This document shows, piece after piece, positions 2,441-7,065 of a DNA stretch of 64,000 nucleotides; positions within the stretch are counted from its first letter, which is position 1; every line of letters starts with the position of its first letter. The notes beneath the pieces are model-generated. The model ran no database searches and was not told where the DNA came from. It worked only from the letters and a program-made list of their open reading frames with translations. Source of the stretch: Solimonas sp. SE-A11. Lineage in GTDB: Bacteria > Pseudomonadota > Gammaproteobacteria > Nevskiales > Nevskiaceae. The position numbers and the translations under genes are program-made. The DNA lies in assembly GCF_030345715.1 (NCBI RefSeq), contig NZ_JAUASX010000001.1, forward strand, positions 372,001 through 436,000. The letters run 5' to 3'.

Positions 2441-3070
2441 TCAATAAATACAGGTCCCCGCCTCCTCGAAGCGCGGCCCACGGAAGCAGCGCCGCGGGTT
2501 GCCCCGCTCCAGTTCGTGGTGCAGCTGGCGGCGCCCGGCGCGCAGCGATTGCCGCGCCTCTTCCGCCTGCTGCGCCAGGCGGCGGCCGAGCAGCAGCAGC
2601 GCCAGGCGCCGGTTGGCGTGCTGGCTGCGTTCCGACTGAACCTTCACACTGATGCCGCTGGCCAGGTGCGTGGCCCGCACCGCCGACTCGGTGCGGTTGA
2701 CGTGCTGGCCCCCGGCCCCGGAGGCGCGCAGCGTATCGATCCGCACCTCCCCGGACGGTGGCGGCGCCGGCAGTGCCAGCACCTGGCCGGCGAAGTACCA
2801 GTTCTTGCGCCCGTAGCCCGGCCGGTAGGGGCTGGGGCAGGTCCATAGCAGGCTGCCGTTCCAGCGCTGTGCCAGCGCCTCGGCCCCGGCGCCCTCCAGC
2901 GCCAGCAGCAGCGACTGCCAGGTGCCGGGTTCCGGTCCCGGCTCCTGTTCCAGCACATTGCAGTCCACCCGCATTGCCGCCGCCTCGTCCCGCAGGCGCT
3001 CCAGCGCCCTCGCCAGTGCCAGGCAGCATTCGGCCGGTCCCTGGCCGGCGGAGAGTTGCAGCAGGATCAT
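2441..3070 (-). CDS. prfH: PrfH, release-factor homologue for damaged-ribosome rescue
   Basis: This 209-aa protein is about half the length of RF1/RF2. It has no N-terminal domain and no PxT or SPF stop-codon recognition motif. It keeps the peptidyl-tRNA hydrolysis motif GAGGQHVN (GGQ at 120-122). The length and the partner gene identify PrfH, a family that releases peptides from ribosomes with a cleaved 16S decoding centre. The start is ATG at 3070, because its ATGA overlaps the rtcB2 stop codon by four bases, which implies translational coupling. A start three codons upstream is also possible. Confidence 0.9.
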
Positions 3071-4215
3071 GGGCAGCACCCCGCGCGCGTCTTGTAGGTG
3101 AGCACCGGCTTCAGCCGCGCCAGCAGCCGCAGCAGGCCCGCCTCGCGCAGCGCGCCCACCACCGAATCCACCGGCTTGTAGGCCTCCGGCGCCTCCTCCC
3201 AGATCAGCGCGCGGTCATCGCAGATCACGCGGCTGCCCAGCGCGGTGCGCTGCAGTTGCTCCGGCCGGTAGCGCCGCGACAGCCGCGCCTTGCAGTCGCC
3301 GCGCTGCCACTTGCGTCCGGCACCGTGCGCCAGCGAGTGCAGCGCCTCCGCGGCAGCGTCACCGGACAGCGGCTCCGCCAGGTAGCTGTAGTCGCCGCGC
3401 GAGCCCGGGATCACCACCGTGCCGCGGTCCGAGGGCGTCGCGCCCTTGCGGTGCAGCCAGCCGTCCTCGCCGCCGATGTGCGCCGGACCGACCAGGTTGT
3501 GATGGATGTCCAGCGCCGCCTCGCCCTCCGCCCGCAGGCGCTCCAGCAGGCGCCGCGCGATCAGCGTCCGGTTGGCCTCGGCATAGCGCAGCGCGCCGTC
3601 GTGGCGCGCCAGGTAATGCCGCGCGTCCTCGCTGCCGTGCTCCAGCCCGCCGTGGCCGTGGCGCTCCACCTGCTCGCGCAGGATCGCCTCGCCCAGTCCG
3701 CGCGAGCCGCTGTGCACGAGCAGCAGCAGCTGACGGCGCTCCAGCTTCAGCGCCGCCACCGCTTCGCCGTCGTAGACCTCGTCGAGCTGCTGCAGCTCGG
3801 CGAAGTGGTTGCCGCCGCCGATGGTGCCGAGCGAACGCGCATGCGCGCCGGCTTCCACGCCCAGTGCATCGACCTGCACCTGCCAGCGCGGCTCCAGCGG
3901 CCCGTCGATGGAGCCGAGGCGTTGCTCCAGCTTGTCCAGGTGTAGCCTCGCCGTGGCGATATCGGTGCGCCACAGCGACATGCCGCAGCCGATGTCGTTG
4001 CCGACCAGGGCCGGGTAGAAGCGACCTACCGAGAAGAATGCAGCGCCCACCGGGTAGCCGCGCCCGGCGTGCAGGTCCGGCATGCCGGCCACGCGCCGCA
4101 TGCCCGGCAGGGCTGCGGTGGTCTGCAGTTGCTGGATCGCATTGCCCTCGATCCAGCAGTCGTCCGCGGCGACGAGGACGACGCCCGCAGACAGGTTTTG
4201 AATGGGATTGCCCAT
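3067..4215 (-). CDS. rtcB2: RtcB2, GTP-dependent RNA ligase of the RtcB2-PrfH pair
   Basis: RtcB-type ligases join a 2',3'-cyclic phosphate or 3'-phosphate end to a 5'-OH, using GTP and Mn2+. Metal and active-site motifs are all present in 382 aa: DIGCGM (Cys77), GGGNHF (His137), LVHSGSR (His168), DIHHN (238-239) and AHGAGR, whose His297 is the expected guanylylated residue. It is shorter than E. coli RtcB (about 408 aa) and is overlapped by prfH, as in RtcB2-PrfH operons that repair 16S rRNA nicked by ribotoxins. The start is ATG at 4215 (GGAAA upstream); the frame is open further upstream without a better start. No rtcA or rtcR is seen nearby. Confidence 0.9.
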
Positions 4216-4281
4216 GTTTCCATTTCCAGAAATGGTGAAGAGAAGGTCTGGTGATGGCAGGCCGGGCGGGCCTGGGCACAG

Positions 4282-4300
4282 CAACCGCTGTCAGCGGTTG
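4282..4300 (-). promoter_or_regulatory. Perfect stem-loop between leader ORF and rtcB2
   Basis: On the minus strand CAACCGCTG, one base, then CAGCGGTTG form 9-bp arms. In RNA the central few bases would open as a loop. It starts three nucleotides after the stop codon of the 13-codon leader ORF and ends 66 nt before rtcB2. It has no U-tract, so it is more likely a protein-binding operator or part of an RNA switch than a simple terminator. Confidence 0.6.
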
Positions 4301-4303
4301 AGG

Positions 4304-4345
4304 CTAGGCTCGGCGCGGCCTGCAAAGGCGTTTCGACAGCGTCAT
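4304..4345 (-). CDS. Candidate 13-residue leader peptide ahead of rtcB2-prfH
   Basis: The ORF ATG...TAG encodes MTLSKRLCRPRRA. It has a strong Shine-Dalgarno (AAGGAG, 7-nt spacing), much better than the one in front of rtcB2. It is Arg/Lys rich (five of 13) and uses AGG and CGA, which are usually uncommon codons in high-G+C genomes. It ends three nucleotides before the stem-loop at 4282-4300. Its own ribosome-binding site can pair with codons 6-9 (see 4321-4362). This resembles a translational attenuator in which ribosome state sets expression of rtcB2-prfH. A chance ORF cannot be excluded. Confidence 0.45.
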   Translation of the reverse strand: MTLSKRLCRPRRA

Positions 4346-4362
4346 GAAGCGTCTCCTTTGCA
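4321..4362 (-). promoter_or_regulatory. Long imperfect dyad covering the leader ribosome-binding site
   Basis: TGCAAAGG and CCTTTGCA (8-bp arms, 26-nt spacer) lie at the ends, with a second inner pairing CGTTTC/GAAGCG that has one mismatch. On the transcript the first arm contains AAGGAG, the leader Shine-Dalgarno, and the second arm lies inside the leader ORF. Folding would hide the leader start; a translating ribosome would open it. Confidence 0.5.
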
Positions 4363-4385
4363 GTGGGGGGGATGAGAGGGCGCGC

Positions 4386-4414
4386 ATCCTATGCCTGGCC
4401 GCGCGCGAATGCAA
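4386..4414 (-). promoter_or_regulatory. Candidate promoter for the leader-rtcB2-prfH transcript
   Basis: TTGCAT and TAGGAT are separated by exactly 17 nt, with TAGGAT about 40 nt before the leader ATG. The -35 match is weak. No sigma-54 -24/-12 element (TGGCAC-N5-TTGC) was found, unlike the known RtcR-controlled rtcBA arrangement. Confidence 0.3.
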
Positions 4415-4421
4415 TGCGTCT

Positions 4422-4811
4422 TCACTGCGGCCAGAACAGCAGCGTCAGCACCAGCAGGCCGGAGTACATGCCGATCTCCAGCGTCTCGCTGATCGGCTGG
4501 ATGCCCTGCACCGCGCCGCGCACGTGCACCACGATCATCAGCACCGCCACCAGCGCCAGCACCTCGAAGGTGAACAGCATGCCGACCCCGGTGAGGCCGG
4601 CGCGCAGCATCAGGCACTCCACGATCAGGATGAATGCGCCCAGGCAGCGGCCGAAGTAGATCGCCAGGTCCGTGTCGGCCGGGATCTTCCAGCCGAAGCG
4701 CCGGGCCCAGGCCAGTGGTGCCAGGAAGATCGGCAGCGCGAACACCAGCGTCGTAGTGGCGGCGATGACCAACAGATAGACATGGGCGTACTTGCCCCAG
4801 AGTCCCAGCAT
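4422..4811 (-). CDS. Small integral membrane protein, unknown
   Basis: This 129-aa protein has about four hydrophobic helices (VYLLVIAATTTLVFALPIFLA near the N-terminus, and LVLTLLFWPQ at the C-terminus). I do not recognise a family with confidence; it resembles short four-helix DoxX-like or DUF-type membrane proteins. The ATG at 4811 is preferred over an upstream in-frame ATG because GGGAGA lies 7 nt before it and the hydrophobic N-terminus follows directly. It precedes the rtcB2 leader on the same strand, so read-through is possible. Confidence 0.7.
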   Translation of the reverse strand: MLGLWGKYAHVYLLVIAATTTLVFALPIFLAPLAWARRFGWKIPADTDLAIYFGRCLGAFILIVECLMLRAGLTGVGMLFTFEVLALVAVLMIVVHVRGAVQGIQPISETLEIGMYSGLLVLTLLFWPQ

Positions 4812-4971
4812 GCTCGTTCTCCCGGAGATCCGGGGAGGGTAGGTGCAGGCAGCCAGCCAGCGCAACACGTAATGGAATCAGTTACTTGAAGGGTACCGGC
4901 GCCGCCTTGAACTTATCCACAGGACGGCACGGAGTTTTCGCCACTGTTGCGGTGCAGCATGAAATCCGAAG

Positions 4972-5460
4972 ATGCCTCCCATGACTTCCAGCACGAACAA
5001 CCACAAGCCGCTGATGGCGCTGGCCCTGTCCATGGCGCTGCTGCTGGCCGCCCCGCTTGCGGAGGCTGCCCCGGCCAGGTCCAAATCCAGGGCTGCACAG
5101 CCGGTGAAGGCTGCCCGCCAGGCCGCGCCGCTGCGCGGCTACGTGTACAGCCCGCAGCAGGCCGCAGTGGCACTCGTACCGCCTCCCGCCATTGCCGGTG
5201 CCCACCCTGTGTCCAGCGTGCCGGCCGGCACCGAACTCACTCGCATCGCCGCCCTGATGCGCCAGTGCGAATCCGCCATTGCCACCGCCCACCCCTGGCG
5301 CGCCGCGCAGGCCCAGCGCGAGATGTTCCAGCTCAAGGTCAGCATGTCCTACCGCGCCGCGGCCGGACGCCTGAGCCCCCAGGACATGTCCAGCGCCATG
5401 GCCATCGAAACCCGCGCCTACGGCAACCTGGCCGCCACCTGCGCGCCGCTGCTGGTCTGA
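4972..5460 (+). CDS. Secreted protein of unknown function
   Basis: This 162-aa protein has a signal peptide (hydrophobic LMALALSMALLLAA, probable cleavage after AEA). A basic linker and an Ala-rich, mostly helical C-terminal half (about residues 85-160) follow. Two cysteines (MRQCESA and ATCAPLL) could form a disulfide. No family is recognised. The ATG at 4981 is an equally good start. The gene is followed by a strong terminator and lies opposite the lysyl-oxidase-like gene. Confidence 0.7.
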   Translation: MPPMTSSTNNHKPLMALALSMALLLAAPLAEAAPARSKSRAAQPVKAARQAAPLRGYVYSPQQAAVALVPPPAIAGAHPVSSVPAGTELTRIAALMRQCESAIATAHPWRAAQAQREMFQLKVSMSYRAAAGRLSPQDMSSAMAIETRAYGNLAATCAPLLV

Positions 5461-5494
5461 TCTCTCCCCTGTCCTTGCTCAAAGGACACTTTCT

Positions 5495-5522
5495 GGCCCC
5501 GCCCTGCGGGGCCTCTTTTTTT
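5495..5522 (+). terminator. Strong intrinsic terminator
   Basis: Arms GGCCCCGC and GCGGGGCC with a 3-nt loop are followed by a run of seven to eight T. It lies 34 bp after the preceding stop codon and separates two convergent genes. Confidence 0.9.
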
Positions 5523-5529
5523 GGGCGGG

Positions 5530-7065
5530 CTAGTCGCGGCGCTGGCGAACCGGCGACGCGCCTGGCCGCTCCAGGCGCAGCAGGGCGATCAGCGTGAGCA
5601 GCGCCAGCAGCCACTCCGAAGGCGCACCGCCACCGCCGCCATCGCTCGACGACCCCGTGTCGTCCTTGCCCGCGGCCACGGCTGACGCCGCGCGCCGAGC
5701 CGGCCCCGGCCCCTCGAAGGCGGTCTTGGCGGGATCCCAGGGGCTTTCGCCCCAGCCGCGCTCGATCAACTGGATGTTGTCGCCCTGCACCTCGATATAG
5801 GCGTAGGACAGGTTGTCGTCGTCGCGGGCTTCCAGTACGTGGTTGTTGGCATCGACGCGCGACTGCACCACGTAGCGGCCGTTGGGCATGCCGTCGAACT
5901 CCACGTACATGCCGGGACGCTGCCAGCGGTAGACGTCGCCCCAGCCGATCGACAGGCCGATGACGCCGTCGTTGGGCGAGAAGCAGCTGCCCAGCGCGGT
6001 GTCGCCCCCAGGCACTTCGTAACCCTGGTTGAACTGGGTCCAGTCGGCGAACAGCTGGTCCGCCGGGCAGAAGCCGGACTTGGTGCCCTCGCCGACGCGC
6101 GTCATGCTGCCGCGTGCCGCGTCGTTCACGGCAAACAGCTCGAAGCTCAACACGTAGTCGTCATGGAAATGCGCGTGGATCGGGTGGAAGCTGTAGGTGC
6201 CTGCCGTGATCTCCTGCGTGCTGCCGTCGGAGTAGTGGATCACCTGCTGCATCGGCCCTACCACGATGCGCGACAGCGCCTCCTGCAGGTTGAGCTGCGC
6301 GGTGCCGGCGATGAAGTCGTCGATCAGGCGGAAGCGCATGTCGTAGATGCCCGGCCCCAGGTTCATCGGCCCGGAGGTGAAGCGCAGGCAGCGCTTCGCC
6401 CCGCCGCCACCCAGAGCAACCGGCGCCGCCTCGTCGGCCGTGCAGGAGATCGGGTGGATGTCGCCGATCGCCAGCGGCGGATTGATGGTGTCGGGCGGAT
6501 AGACGCCGTTGAGCGGATTGGCCGGTGCGATGAAGGTGAATTCGTAGGGCGGCACGGTGCGCAGGTTGGGCAGCAGCGCGCGGCGCGCACCCTGGGCGGA
6601 GAGGTCCTCCGGCAGTACCGACTCCAGCTTTGCGCGCATGCGGAACGAAGCCTGCGTGACGCTTTCGGGCCGCACCCGAATGGTCCATTCGCCGGGCTCG
6701 GGATCCATCACCAGCGCCTCCGAGTTGAACTGGTTGGAGTTGCTGTCGCTGGCCGCGACCGCGCCGTGCGGGTCGATCAGGTCCACGGCGAAGGTATCGG
6801 TGCGCTCCGGTGTGTCGATGCCGACGCGCAGGCGACGGCCGCCCGGGGCCAGGGCGATCTTCCAGCTCGGACAGGGCGCGGCGCGGTCGCAGAGGGCGGC
6901 ATTGCTCACGCGGCCGGAGGCGATGGTGCCTCCGTCCCAGAAGGTCGATTCGCCCAGCCCCAGCGCGGCAGCAGGGCCGGCGGCCTTGGCTCCATGCGCC
7001 AGGGCGCAGGTGGGTGACAGCAGCAGCACGGCCAGCAGGGCGTGCTTCGAAAATGGCGATGGCAT
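5530..7065 (-). CDS. Lysyl-oxidase-like surface protein with GlyGly-CTERM-type tail
   Basis: This 511-aa protein has a signal peptide (PSPFSKHALLAVLLLSP...ALA), a beta-rich N-terminal half, and a region around residues 270-430 that resembles copper amine oxidases of the lysyl oxidase family. The His cluster HPIHAHFHDDY, then SGFCPADQ, GSCF, and a C-terminal PNGRYVVQSRVDANN segment match the copper site and fold order of that family. The tail is GGGGGAPSEWLLALL, a hydrophobic helix and then basic residues, the architecture of GlyGly-CTERM sorting signals processed by rhombosortase and used with type II secretion. The start is ATG at 7065, where the signal peptide begins. Enzyme activity is inferred. 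Confidence 0.75.
   Translation of the reverse strand: MPSPFSKHALLAVLLLSPTCALAHGAKAAGPAAALGLGESTFWDGGTIASGRVSNAALCDRAAPCPSWKIALAPGGRRLRVGIDTPERTDTFAVDLIDPHGAVAASDSNSNQFNSEALVMDPEPGEWTIRVRPESVTQASFRMRAKLESVLPEDLSAQGARRALLPNLRTVPPYEFTFIAPANPLNGVYPPDTINPPLAIGDIHPISCTADEAAPVALGGGGAKRCLRFTSGPMNLGPGIYDMRFRLIDDFIAGTAQLNLQEALSRIVVGPMQQVIHYSDGSTQEITAGTYSFHPIHAHFHDDYVLSFELFAVNDAARGSMTRVGEGTKSGFCPADQLFADWTQFNQGYEVPGGDTALGSCFSPNDGVIGLSIGWGDVYRWQRPGMYVEFDGMPNGRYVVQSRVDANNHVLEARDDDNLSYAYIEVQGDNIQLIERGWGESPWDPAKTAFEGPGPARRAASAVAAGKDDTGSSSDGGGGGAPSEWLLALLTLIALLRLERPGASPVRQRRD

Follow-up and report, generated by a model that had tools for sequence, protein, structure and literature searches.

Probably, a short gene and the competing RNA folds around it switch on a ribosome-repair operon, rtcB2-prfH, upon ribosome stalling in Solimonas sp. 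SE-A11. The element lies in a stretch of 64,000 nucleotides that was analysed as a whole (the window) and, judged by its sequence, is homologous to the PA5471.1 leader of Pseudomonas aeruginosa. It is likely to act as a translation-sensing attenuator of the PA5471.1 type, with rtcB2 translation as the output. The layout of a ribosome-sensing attenuator, named in the original prediction, is in kind well supported by conservation and coevolving pairings. Comparative evidence indicates that the leader element is functional, and the sensing half of the putative attenuator is well supported. The direction of the switch would follow in part from published work on P. aeruginosa, and control would be exerted via rtcB2 translation, from which transcript loss might ensue. 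Leaders of this kind are already described in P. aeruginosa, and their occurrence is wider than in the accessible part of that literature.

The identity of the operon is secured by two products scoring above curated cut-offs (Table 1) and by the adjacency of the genes, the start of prfH and the stop of rtcB2 overlapping in an ATGA (read from the sequence). Direct reading also bears out the 13-codon leader open reading frame (ORF) at 4345-4304 of the minus strand, whose ATG lies 130 nt 5' of rtcB2, and its Shine-Dalgarno (SD) sequence AAGGAG (4358-4353, minus), followed by 7 nt to the ATG. The predicted dyad between this SD and codons 6-9 is exact: CTGCAAAGG (4363-4355) is complementary to CCTTTGCAG (4328-4320) over 9 nt. 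The stem-loop behind the leader begins three nt past the stop, as had been stated, but its stem measures 8 bp with a GAC triloop rather than 9 bp. The range first delimited, 4282-4414, holds real elements but ends too early, as the conserved layout runs to the rtcB2 SD at 4220. Farther 5' of the leader, a 148-aa ORF (4422-4868, minus) has no NCBIfam match. Rfam, applied to 3500-7000 of the window, yielded two matches up to an E value of 1, both below the gathering threshold (25.6 of 69 and 20.3 of 41 bits). The plus strand was rejected as the carrier (z -1.21 over 159 nt vs z -2.47 for the minus-strand leader over 214 nt), and so was a repeated element, with a single genomic place by DNA similarity and a single match of the leader pattern in the genome.

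Table 1. Elements of the rtcB2-prfH locus, in window positions
Feature	Position	Strand	Basis
Promoter-like pair TTGCAT (4414-4409), 17 nt, TAGGAT (4391-4386)	4386..4414	-	read from sequence
Segment 1, CTGCAAAGG; overlaps leader SD AAGGAG (4358-4353)	4355..4363	-	sequence, 1:2 swap tests
Leader ORF MTLSKRLCRPRRA, 13 codons + TAG; ATG 4345-4343, stop 4306-4304	4304..4345	-	read from sequence
Segment 2, CCTTTGCAGGCCG; 4328-4320 pairs with segment 1, 4323-4316 (GCAGGCCG) with segment 3	4316..4328	-	sequence, 2:3 swap tests, paired changes
Stem-loop 3' of leader stop, 8 bp, loop GAC (4300-4293 / 4289-4282)	4282..4300	-	sequence, folding
Segment 3 core, CGGCCTGC; partner of segment 2	4257..4264	-	trimmed-block swap test, paired changes
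Helix 3:4, 5' arm: CCAT (4257-4254) + CCAGA (4251-4247)	4247..4257	-	MFE structure, swap tests
Segment 4: TCTGG (4230-4226) + ATGG (4223-4220), over weak rtcB2 ribosome-binding site	4220..4230	-	MFE structure, swap tests
rtcB2, putative controlled gene; ATG 4215-4213	3067..4215	-	TIGR03073 567.9 bits, NF007153 563.7 bits, both above cut-off
prfH	2441..3070	-	TIGR03072 278.1 bits, above cut-off

According to the accessible text of the respective papers, PA5471.1 is a 13-residue leader about 250 bp 5' of PA5471 (armZ) (PMC12057347, PMC13159725, PMC13041342, PMC3516279, PMC9765613, PMC3884212, PMC4335980). PA5471 is an RtcB-like RNA ligase and PA5470 a predicted release factor, named prfH (PMC12057347); both are encoded on a single drug-inducible message (PMC13041342, PMC3516279). 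The statement of the original prediction that no leader control is described for RtcB2-PrfH therefore had to be given up, since the homologous PA5471.1 precedes exactly such a pair. As far as these texts go, the PA5471.1-controlled operon is induced by ribosome-targeting drugs (PMC12057347, PMC13041342), stalling on PA5471.1 raises armZ, and ArmZ is also raised by a stop at codon 3 and by deletion of positions 1-226 (PMC13041342, PMC3516279). The effect of Cca loss is mediated by PA5471.1 codons 3 and 4 (PMC13041342, PMC3516279), which lie upstream of the segment termed segment 2 below, and leader mRNA is enriched on ribosomes in a cca mutant (P. aeruginosa leader papers including PMC13041342). 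The control of armZ was proposed to be transcriptional attenuation (PMC12057347, PMC13041342, PMC4335980), while one place in PMC3884212 has 'translational attenuation' instead; an intrinsic terminator between PA5471.1 and armZ is called unconfirmed in the review PMC12057347. The leader of P. aeruginosa PA7 (L056) reads MIQFSTLCRLRLA and carries Q3 and F4 as published (PMC13041342), so that the window's leader is regarded as a further member of the PA5471.1 type. The accessible literature on PrfH, RtcB2, ykfJ, and ArmZ, which covers few subscription papers, yielded no leader description outside P. aeruginosa, and 'leader' and 'attenuat' are absent from the main texts of two RtcB2-PrfH papers (PMC9223846, PMC1586002).

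The conservation of the leader was assessed upstream of related rtcB2 genes. A scan of the collection genome_contigs gave at least 549 stretches encoding an RtcB2 relative, of which the best 80 loci were kept; 36 of these best 80 are from Pseudomonas, and the rest include Ralstonia, Cupriavidus, Rhodoferax, Pectobacterium, Serratia, and Xenorhabdus. Being the nearest relatives, they sample rtcB2 genes in general unevenly. The window, the same-genus genome G003, and three plasmid-collection records brought the number of upstream regions to 85. An SD-led ATG ORF of 8-30 codons is present in 84 of these 85 similarity-collected regions (best 80 of at least 549, plus five), and the sole miss, L104, comprises 100 nt of sequence only. 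The 84 leaders have 13 codons in 52 cases, 14 in 17, 15 in 7, 16 in 3, and 19 in 5. Where a locus offered a choice, the second candidate ORF (L028, L034) or the outer start (L098, L103) was left unused. As chance controls, dinucleotide shuffling of the window's upstream region produced an SD-led ORF of 8-30 codons in 107 of 2000 sequences, and shuffling 83 of the 85 regions (without L104, with its 100 nt, and L085, with N in the region) did so in 64 of 1660. Among 728 real 350-nt stretches from both strands of the window, 13 contained such an ORF. A chance ORF with chance dyads in a GC-rich intergenic region is thus a next to negligible explanation: some SD-led short ORF does turn up in 4-5% of shuffles, but the near-universal ORF, the coevolving pairs, and the near-constant spacing speak against it.

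Within the genus, three genomes were sampled. In G002 (L099), rtcB2 is complete and 97% identical and is preceded by a 13-codon leader, MTLSNRLCRSRLA; G003 (L004) has kept a 13-codon leader, MTPSNRLCRSSLA, with the stop TGA instead of TAG; G001 has a distant RtcB only. In G003, the rtcB2 match is limited to residues 1-90 (89% identity), and the leader is nonetheless kept. Loss of the ORF and pairings in close relatives, which the original prediction named as evidence against itself, was looked for, and both turned out to be conserved. The stem-loop behind the stop, which had been expected to be conserved along with the ORF, is not the best-conserved element: G003 has another sequence there, for which an alternative stem can be drawn, and a stem of at least 5 bp just after the leader stop occurs in 18 of 35 representatives (mean 5.0 bp vs 3.8 in shuffles). 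A T-run after this stem-loop is absent from the window. The representatives stem from clustering at 80% identity, which gave 34; L104 is absent from clustering onward, L264 and L265 joined from the footprint modelling on, and L103 was dropped from the swap tests on.

Many leader peptides have an LCR motif in common, which is what could be expected of a peptide that is itself active, as an arrest peptide or as a small protein. This explanation is nevertheless highly improbable. The RNA of segment 2 is read in one frame in 28 of 32 representatives and in another frame (FAG or FAD) in the remaining four, L061 (a Ralstonia-like group), L136 (an IncC plasmid), L264, and L265; since segment 2 is kept in two reading frames, the RNA more than the peptide seems to be selected. 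The Rhodoferax-Hydrogenophaga group harbors an unrelated leader (MQKNTTSLWAGSAVAGL-) in the same place, and, according to the accessible text of PMC13041342, the exchanges Q3K and F4L leave expression in wild-type P. aeruginosa unchanged. The unrelated leader has 19 codons and occurs in L082, L088, L091, L094, and L096 (Rhodoferax, Hydrogenophaga, and a Burkholderiales MAG). In L082 and L088, the pairing of the leader to its own SD equals or exceeds every swap (-18.9).

The conserved core consists of four segments: the leader SD (segment 1), CTTTGCAGG within the ORF (segment 2), CGGCCTGCC (segment 3), and the rtcB2 SD (segment 4). Segment 3 starts 41-64 nt 5' of rtcB2 in 31 of 32 representatives and 140 nt 5' of it in L081. 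Pairing was assessed by swap tests, in which a representative's own partner is compared with partners exchanged among representatives (below 80% identity) over 20000 permutations; the resulting counts are uncorrected for remaining relatedness and base composition. For 1:2 (n=33), own partners gave a mean of -15.75 vs -13.95 (sd 0.38), and none of 20000 permutations was as good; for 2:3 (n=31), the values are -13.15 vs -11.90 (sd 0.29) and one of 20000, and for 3:4 (n=31) -10.77 vs -8.99 (sd 0.35) and none. L082 and L088, with segment 3 scores below 7, were left out of the 2:3 and 3:4 swaps, and L100 in addition out of the tests with trimmed blocks. Trimmed blocks (n=32) gave 10 permutations as good for 1:2, 0 for 2:3, and 10 for 3:4 out of 20000, where 3:4 denotes the stretch downstream of the segment 3 core against the rtcB2 SD. 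Control combinations were flat (n=32, of 20000): leader SD with rtcB2 SD 16153, segment 2 with rtcB2 SD 14378, leader SD with segment 3 core 11344. The segment 3 core and the rtcB2 SD alone show no coevolution (4203 of 20000, n=32). A local hairpin at segment 3 was rejected as the OFF structure, with 11536 of 20000 permutations as good in a test that is blind to an invariant hairpin. In the window taken by itself, own partners beat 47% (1:2), 93% (2:3), and 93% (3:4) of the swaps.

Paired changes point in the same direction. Pairs 2 to 5 of helix 2:3 are formed in all 32 representatives, pairs 2 and 4 being invariant; at pair 3, 30 representatives have A-T and 2 have G-C, and at pair 5, 27 have G-C, one has G-T, and 4 have A-T (3 of 31 without L264). 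Segment 3 of L264 was placed by hand, so that its changes in 2:3 are not independent of the observer's eye. In the window, 2:3 joins GCAGGCCG (4323-4316) with CGGCCTGC (4264-4257), and 3:4 joins CCAT and CCAGA with TCTGG and ATGG and is present in the minimum free energy (MFE) structure; the two helices overlap by one nt.

The placement of segment 2 relative to the leader fits a ribosome-operated switch. Spacings were counted in the 32 representatives (80 of 86 loci) that have the segment 2 motif, which is absent from L082, L088, L091, L094, L096, and L100. Counted from the A of the leader ATG, segment 2 (TTTGC) starts at a distance of 19 nt in 19 of the 32, 21 nt in 4, 22 nt in 3, and 25 nt in 6. 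The footprint of an initiating ribosome is expected to end just short of this start. Across differing leader lengths, the leader stop lies 20 nt past the segment 2 start in 26 of 32 (range 15-23), and in the other two frames the stop spacing scatters without a peak. With a modelled ribosome at codon 1, the expected number of pairs between the ORF and the later leader rises from 7.3 to 13.2; with the ribosome at codons 9-13 it is at most 0.6, a loss of 2:3 that is partly built in because the modelled footprint masks segment 2. From the offset of segment 2, the stop spacing, and the footprint model together, it follows that early arrest of a ribosome should keep segment 2 accessible and permit 2:3, and that a ribosome finishing the leader should cover segment 2.

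The following course of events is supposed. Freely translating ribosomes would get to the leader stop and mask segment 2; after they leave, 1:2 could pair, so that segments 2 and 3 would stay apart and the rtcB2 start region would be covered by helix 3:4, keeping expression low. A ribosome held at the start or the first few codons by a drug, cut rRNA, or an uncharged tRNA would mask segment 1 and leave segment 2 free. Helix 2:3 would then form, 3:4 would be shortened or loosened, and rtcB2-prfH would be expressed. Stalled or damaged ribosomes would thereby induce their own repair and rescue.

Regarding the output, the published proposal offers a first alternative, i.e. the same leader and sensor with a transcriptional output, in which completion of the leader permits an intrinsic terminator formed by segments 3 and 4 before rtcB2. 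Transcriptional attenuation is what is described for P. aeruginosa (PMC12057347, PMC13041342, the latter with a 3:4 terminator hairpin in its accessible text). Yet terminator-like sites after the leader stop were found in 2 of 35 representatives (L089, L264) where 3.7 are expected, and scans detected none on the minus strand of the window between 4000 and 5000 and none after the leader of the PA7 representative L056. The coevolving partner of the stretch 3' of segment 3 is the rtcB2 SD, and the review PMC12057347, in the text at hand, itself asks for additional studies. As terminators are unenriched and the helix over the rtcB2 start region coevolves, the terminator proposal is called into question, and a terminator is deemed quite unlikely to be the output.

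The favored output is a covering of the region where rtcB2 translation starts. The unpaired probability of the rtcB2 SD is 0.32, compared with 0.41 when the upstream sequence is shuffled; it is lower in 25 of 35 representatives (p 0.0005). In the predicted resting MFE structure, helix 3:4 covers this SD. Together with the lack of enriched terminators, this reduced accessibility favors rtcB2 translation over the published terminator. No excess hiding was found for the leader SD (0.31 vs 0.30 with shuffled downstream sequence, 17 of 35, p 0.8). The strong SD release supposed at first had to be dropped: the calculated release is weaker, from 0.32 without a ribosome to 0.34 with one at codon 1, and the value is higher in only 22 of 35. 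In the window, placing a ribosome at codon 1 changes the modelled value from 0.27 to 0.38, and the modelled structure has a shortened 3:4; the mean gain in SD accessibility across the representatives is small.

A second alternative retains the same sensor and lets Rho terminate between segment 3 and the rtcB2 SD, where the RNA is rich in C and poor in G, if rtcB2 is untranslated or 2:3 unformed. After the leader stop, C exceeds G in 34 of 35 representatives, and the stretch from -45 to -14 contains on average 21.3 pyrimidines and 3.8 G among 31 nt (35 representatives). Owing to this composition, Rho-dependent polarity is a real alternative or companion, which would reconcile SD occlusion with the published changes in transcript level. 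However, an unpaired loop would be expected to show such a composition as well, the figures cover these leaders alone, and termination by Rho is compatible with SD occlusion, not exclusive of it. As an explanation in its own right it is considered unlikely, and occlusion of the rtcB2 start remains the favored output.

The promoter-like pair noted 5' of the leader was likewise recovered by reading. TTGCAT/TAGGAT agrees with 7 of 12 consensus positions, and a pair of the form TTG-N19-21-TANNNT recurs at this site in 30 of 35 representatives, where shuffles would give 2.2; a stricter promoter scan of the leader region listed no promoter. Judged by this pair, the transcript would start near 4379. 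Directly 3' of the -10 element, the window and many relatives display a GC-rich stretch (GCGCGCC, window 4385-4379). Such a stretch after the -10 element is a feature of stringently controlled promoters.

A fairer sample than the best 80 loci is provided by 398 evenly drawn genomes of the phylum. TIGR03073 scores above its cut-off in 11 of these 398, and the leader was seen directly in seven of the 11 (the window, L259-L262, L264, and L265). In G604, the leader and an rtcB2-like start lie on one contig and the remainder on another, which we take to be one split gene. L269, from another class, has a different 13-codon leader, and in L266 and L268 no leader was found within 350 nt 5' of rtcB2. 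Speaking against a wide reach, PrfH exceeds its cut-off in no more than 6 of the 369 genomes that were sampled in the class. Among these six, the window and L107 have the leader, the SD-led ORF of L108 has 12 codons and lacks the motif, L109 and L110 show no leader 5' of rtcB2 within the sequence examined, and in L105 prfH occurs without an RtcB2 match in the stretch examined. The last also applies to L253 (Thiodictyon plasmid pTs485). On plasmids of alphaproteobacteria, short ORFs are present in L254 (Methylosinus) and L255 (Shinella), and L256 (Novosphingobium) shows none within the sequence examined; these are leads only. The wider ORF calls used a looser SD rule, and under the stricter rule L254 fails while L255 and L269 pass. 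L255 and L269, outside the gamma-/betaproteobacterial group, have 13-codon SD-led ORFs sharing ATCTCC-N-CACGCCCC, unlike the leader of that group. A use of the leader before other genes was rejected: the exact pattern occurs in 9 of 398 genomes, seven times at rtcB2 starts and twice chance-like (L296, L297), with one occurrence in a reversed control. In the collection viral_contigs, 115 stretches match the leader pattern, and tblastn with RtcB2 over all 115 loci gave no match. The Klebsiella pneumoniae IncC plasmid NZ_CP086440.1 (L136), typed as conjugative, carries rtcB2-prfH with its own leader (MQNTSTSFAGLVR) between qnrA6 and sul1.

Escherichia coli was queried with 180 nt of L135 that comprise the leader, the spacer, and the 5'-terminal 20 nt of rtcB2. 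Matches occur in 5347 of 5426 complete E. coli genomes and cover at least 80% of the query length in 3806; as at least one listed match spans only 20% of the query, a match does not equal an intact leader. In strain U14A, the rtcB2-prfH pair lies 3' of the matched leader, and in MG1655 both genes are annotated as incomplete. Insertions with a common CAACTTGAAGTATGACGAGTAT-like end are found between leader and rtcB2 in MG1655 (L298, 1500-1830) and in the enterobacterial loci L103 and L090; the MG1655 insertion sits between segments 3 and 4. According to the accessible text of PMC3516279, 4-azaleucine induces the E. coli gene ykfJ, which is homologous to PA5471 but truncated; this fits leader control.

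Tentatively, in what we hold to be nearly an even call, the PA5471.1 leader, described as special to mexXY control, would be an ancient RNA device for sensing ribosome damage or stalling. It would be a regular part of rtcB2-prfH repair operons in gamma- and betaproteobacteria, among them E. coli, and alphaproteobacteria would have look-alikes of it. The leader would act on rtcB2 translation via the four-segment switch, and the role of ArmZ in mexXY induction would be a later addition to a repair response. Two literatures are thereby joined, the one on the drug-induced efflux leader of P. aeruginosa and the one on RtcB2-PrfH, whose operon gives E. coli protection against colicin E3. The prediction is that damage to ribosomes turns on, by way of a short leader, the operon for their repair, with laboratory E. 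coli as a natural test bed.

Compared with known systems, the window's leader is closest to PA5471.1 as represented by L056. Both have 13 codons, an LCRxRxA end, and the same kind of SD, precede an rtcB2-prfH pair, and share the CTTTGCAGG segment, a further segment (TCTGCC vs CCTGCC), and a promoter-like pair at 17 nt. They differ in that the leader start lies 254 nt before the gene in PA7 and 130 nt in the window, and, unlike in the window, the P. aeruginosa PA5471 product is also a MexZ anti-repressor and the published output, in the accessible text, is transcriptional (PMC12057347, PMC13041342). As L056 itself is without a scanned terminator, a terminator is not counted as defining for leaders of the PA5471.1 type. 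Translational attenuators of the ermC type rest with 1:2 and 3:4 paired, form 2:3 when the leader stalls, and have the gene's SD in segment 4. The window's leader resembles them in its four segments, the gene SD in segment 4, and a predicted occlusion at rest; unlike there, the stall seems not to be peptide-specific, and 2:3 and 3:4 overlap by one nt. In attenuators of the trp type, a ribosome at the leader stop masks segment 2. The same would hold for a ribosome at the stop of the window's leader, which differs from the trp type in having neither a run of control codons nor, by scan, an intrinsic terminator. The RtcR-activated rtcAB operon, as far as accessible sources describe it, is similar in that the regulated operon encodes an RtcB RNA ligase, but RtcR is a protein activator and rtcAB another operon.
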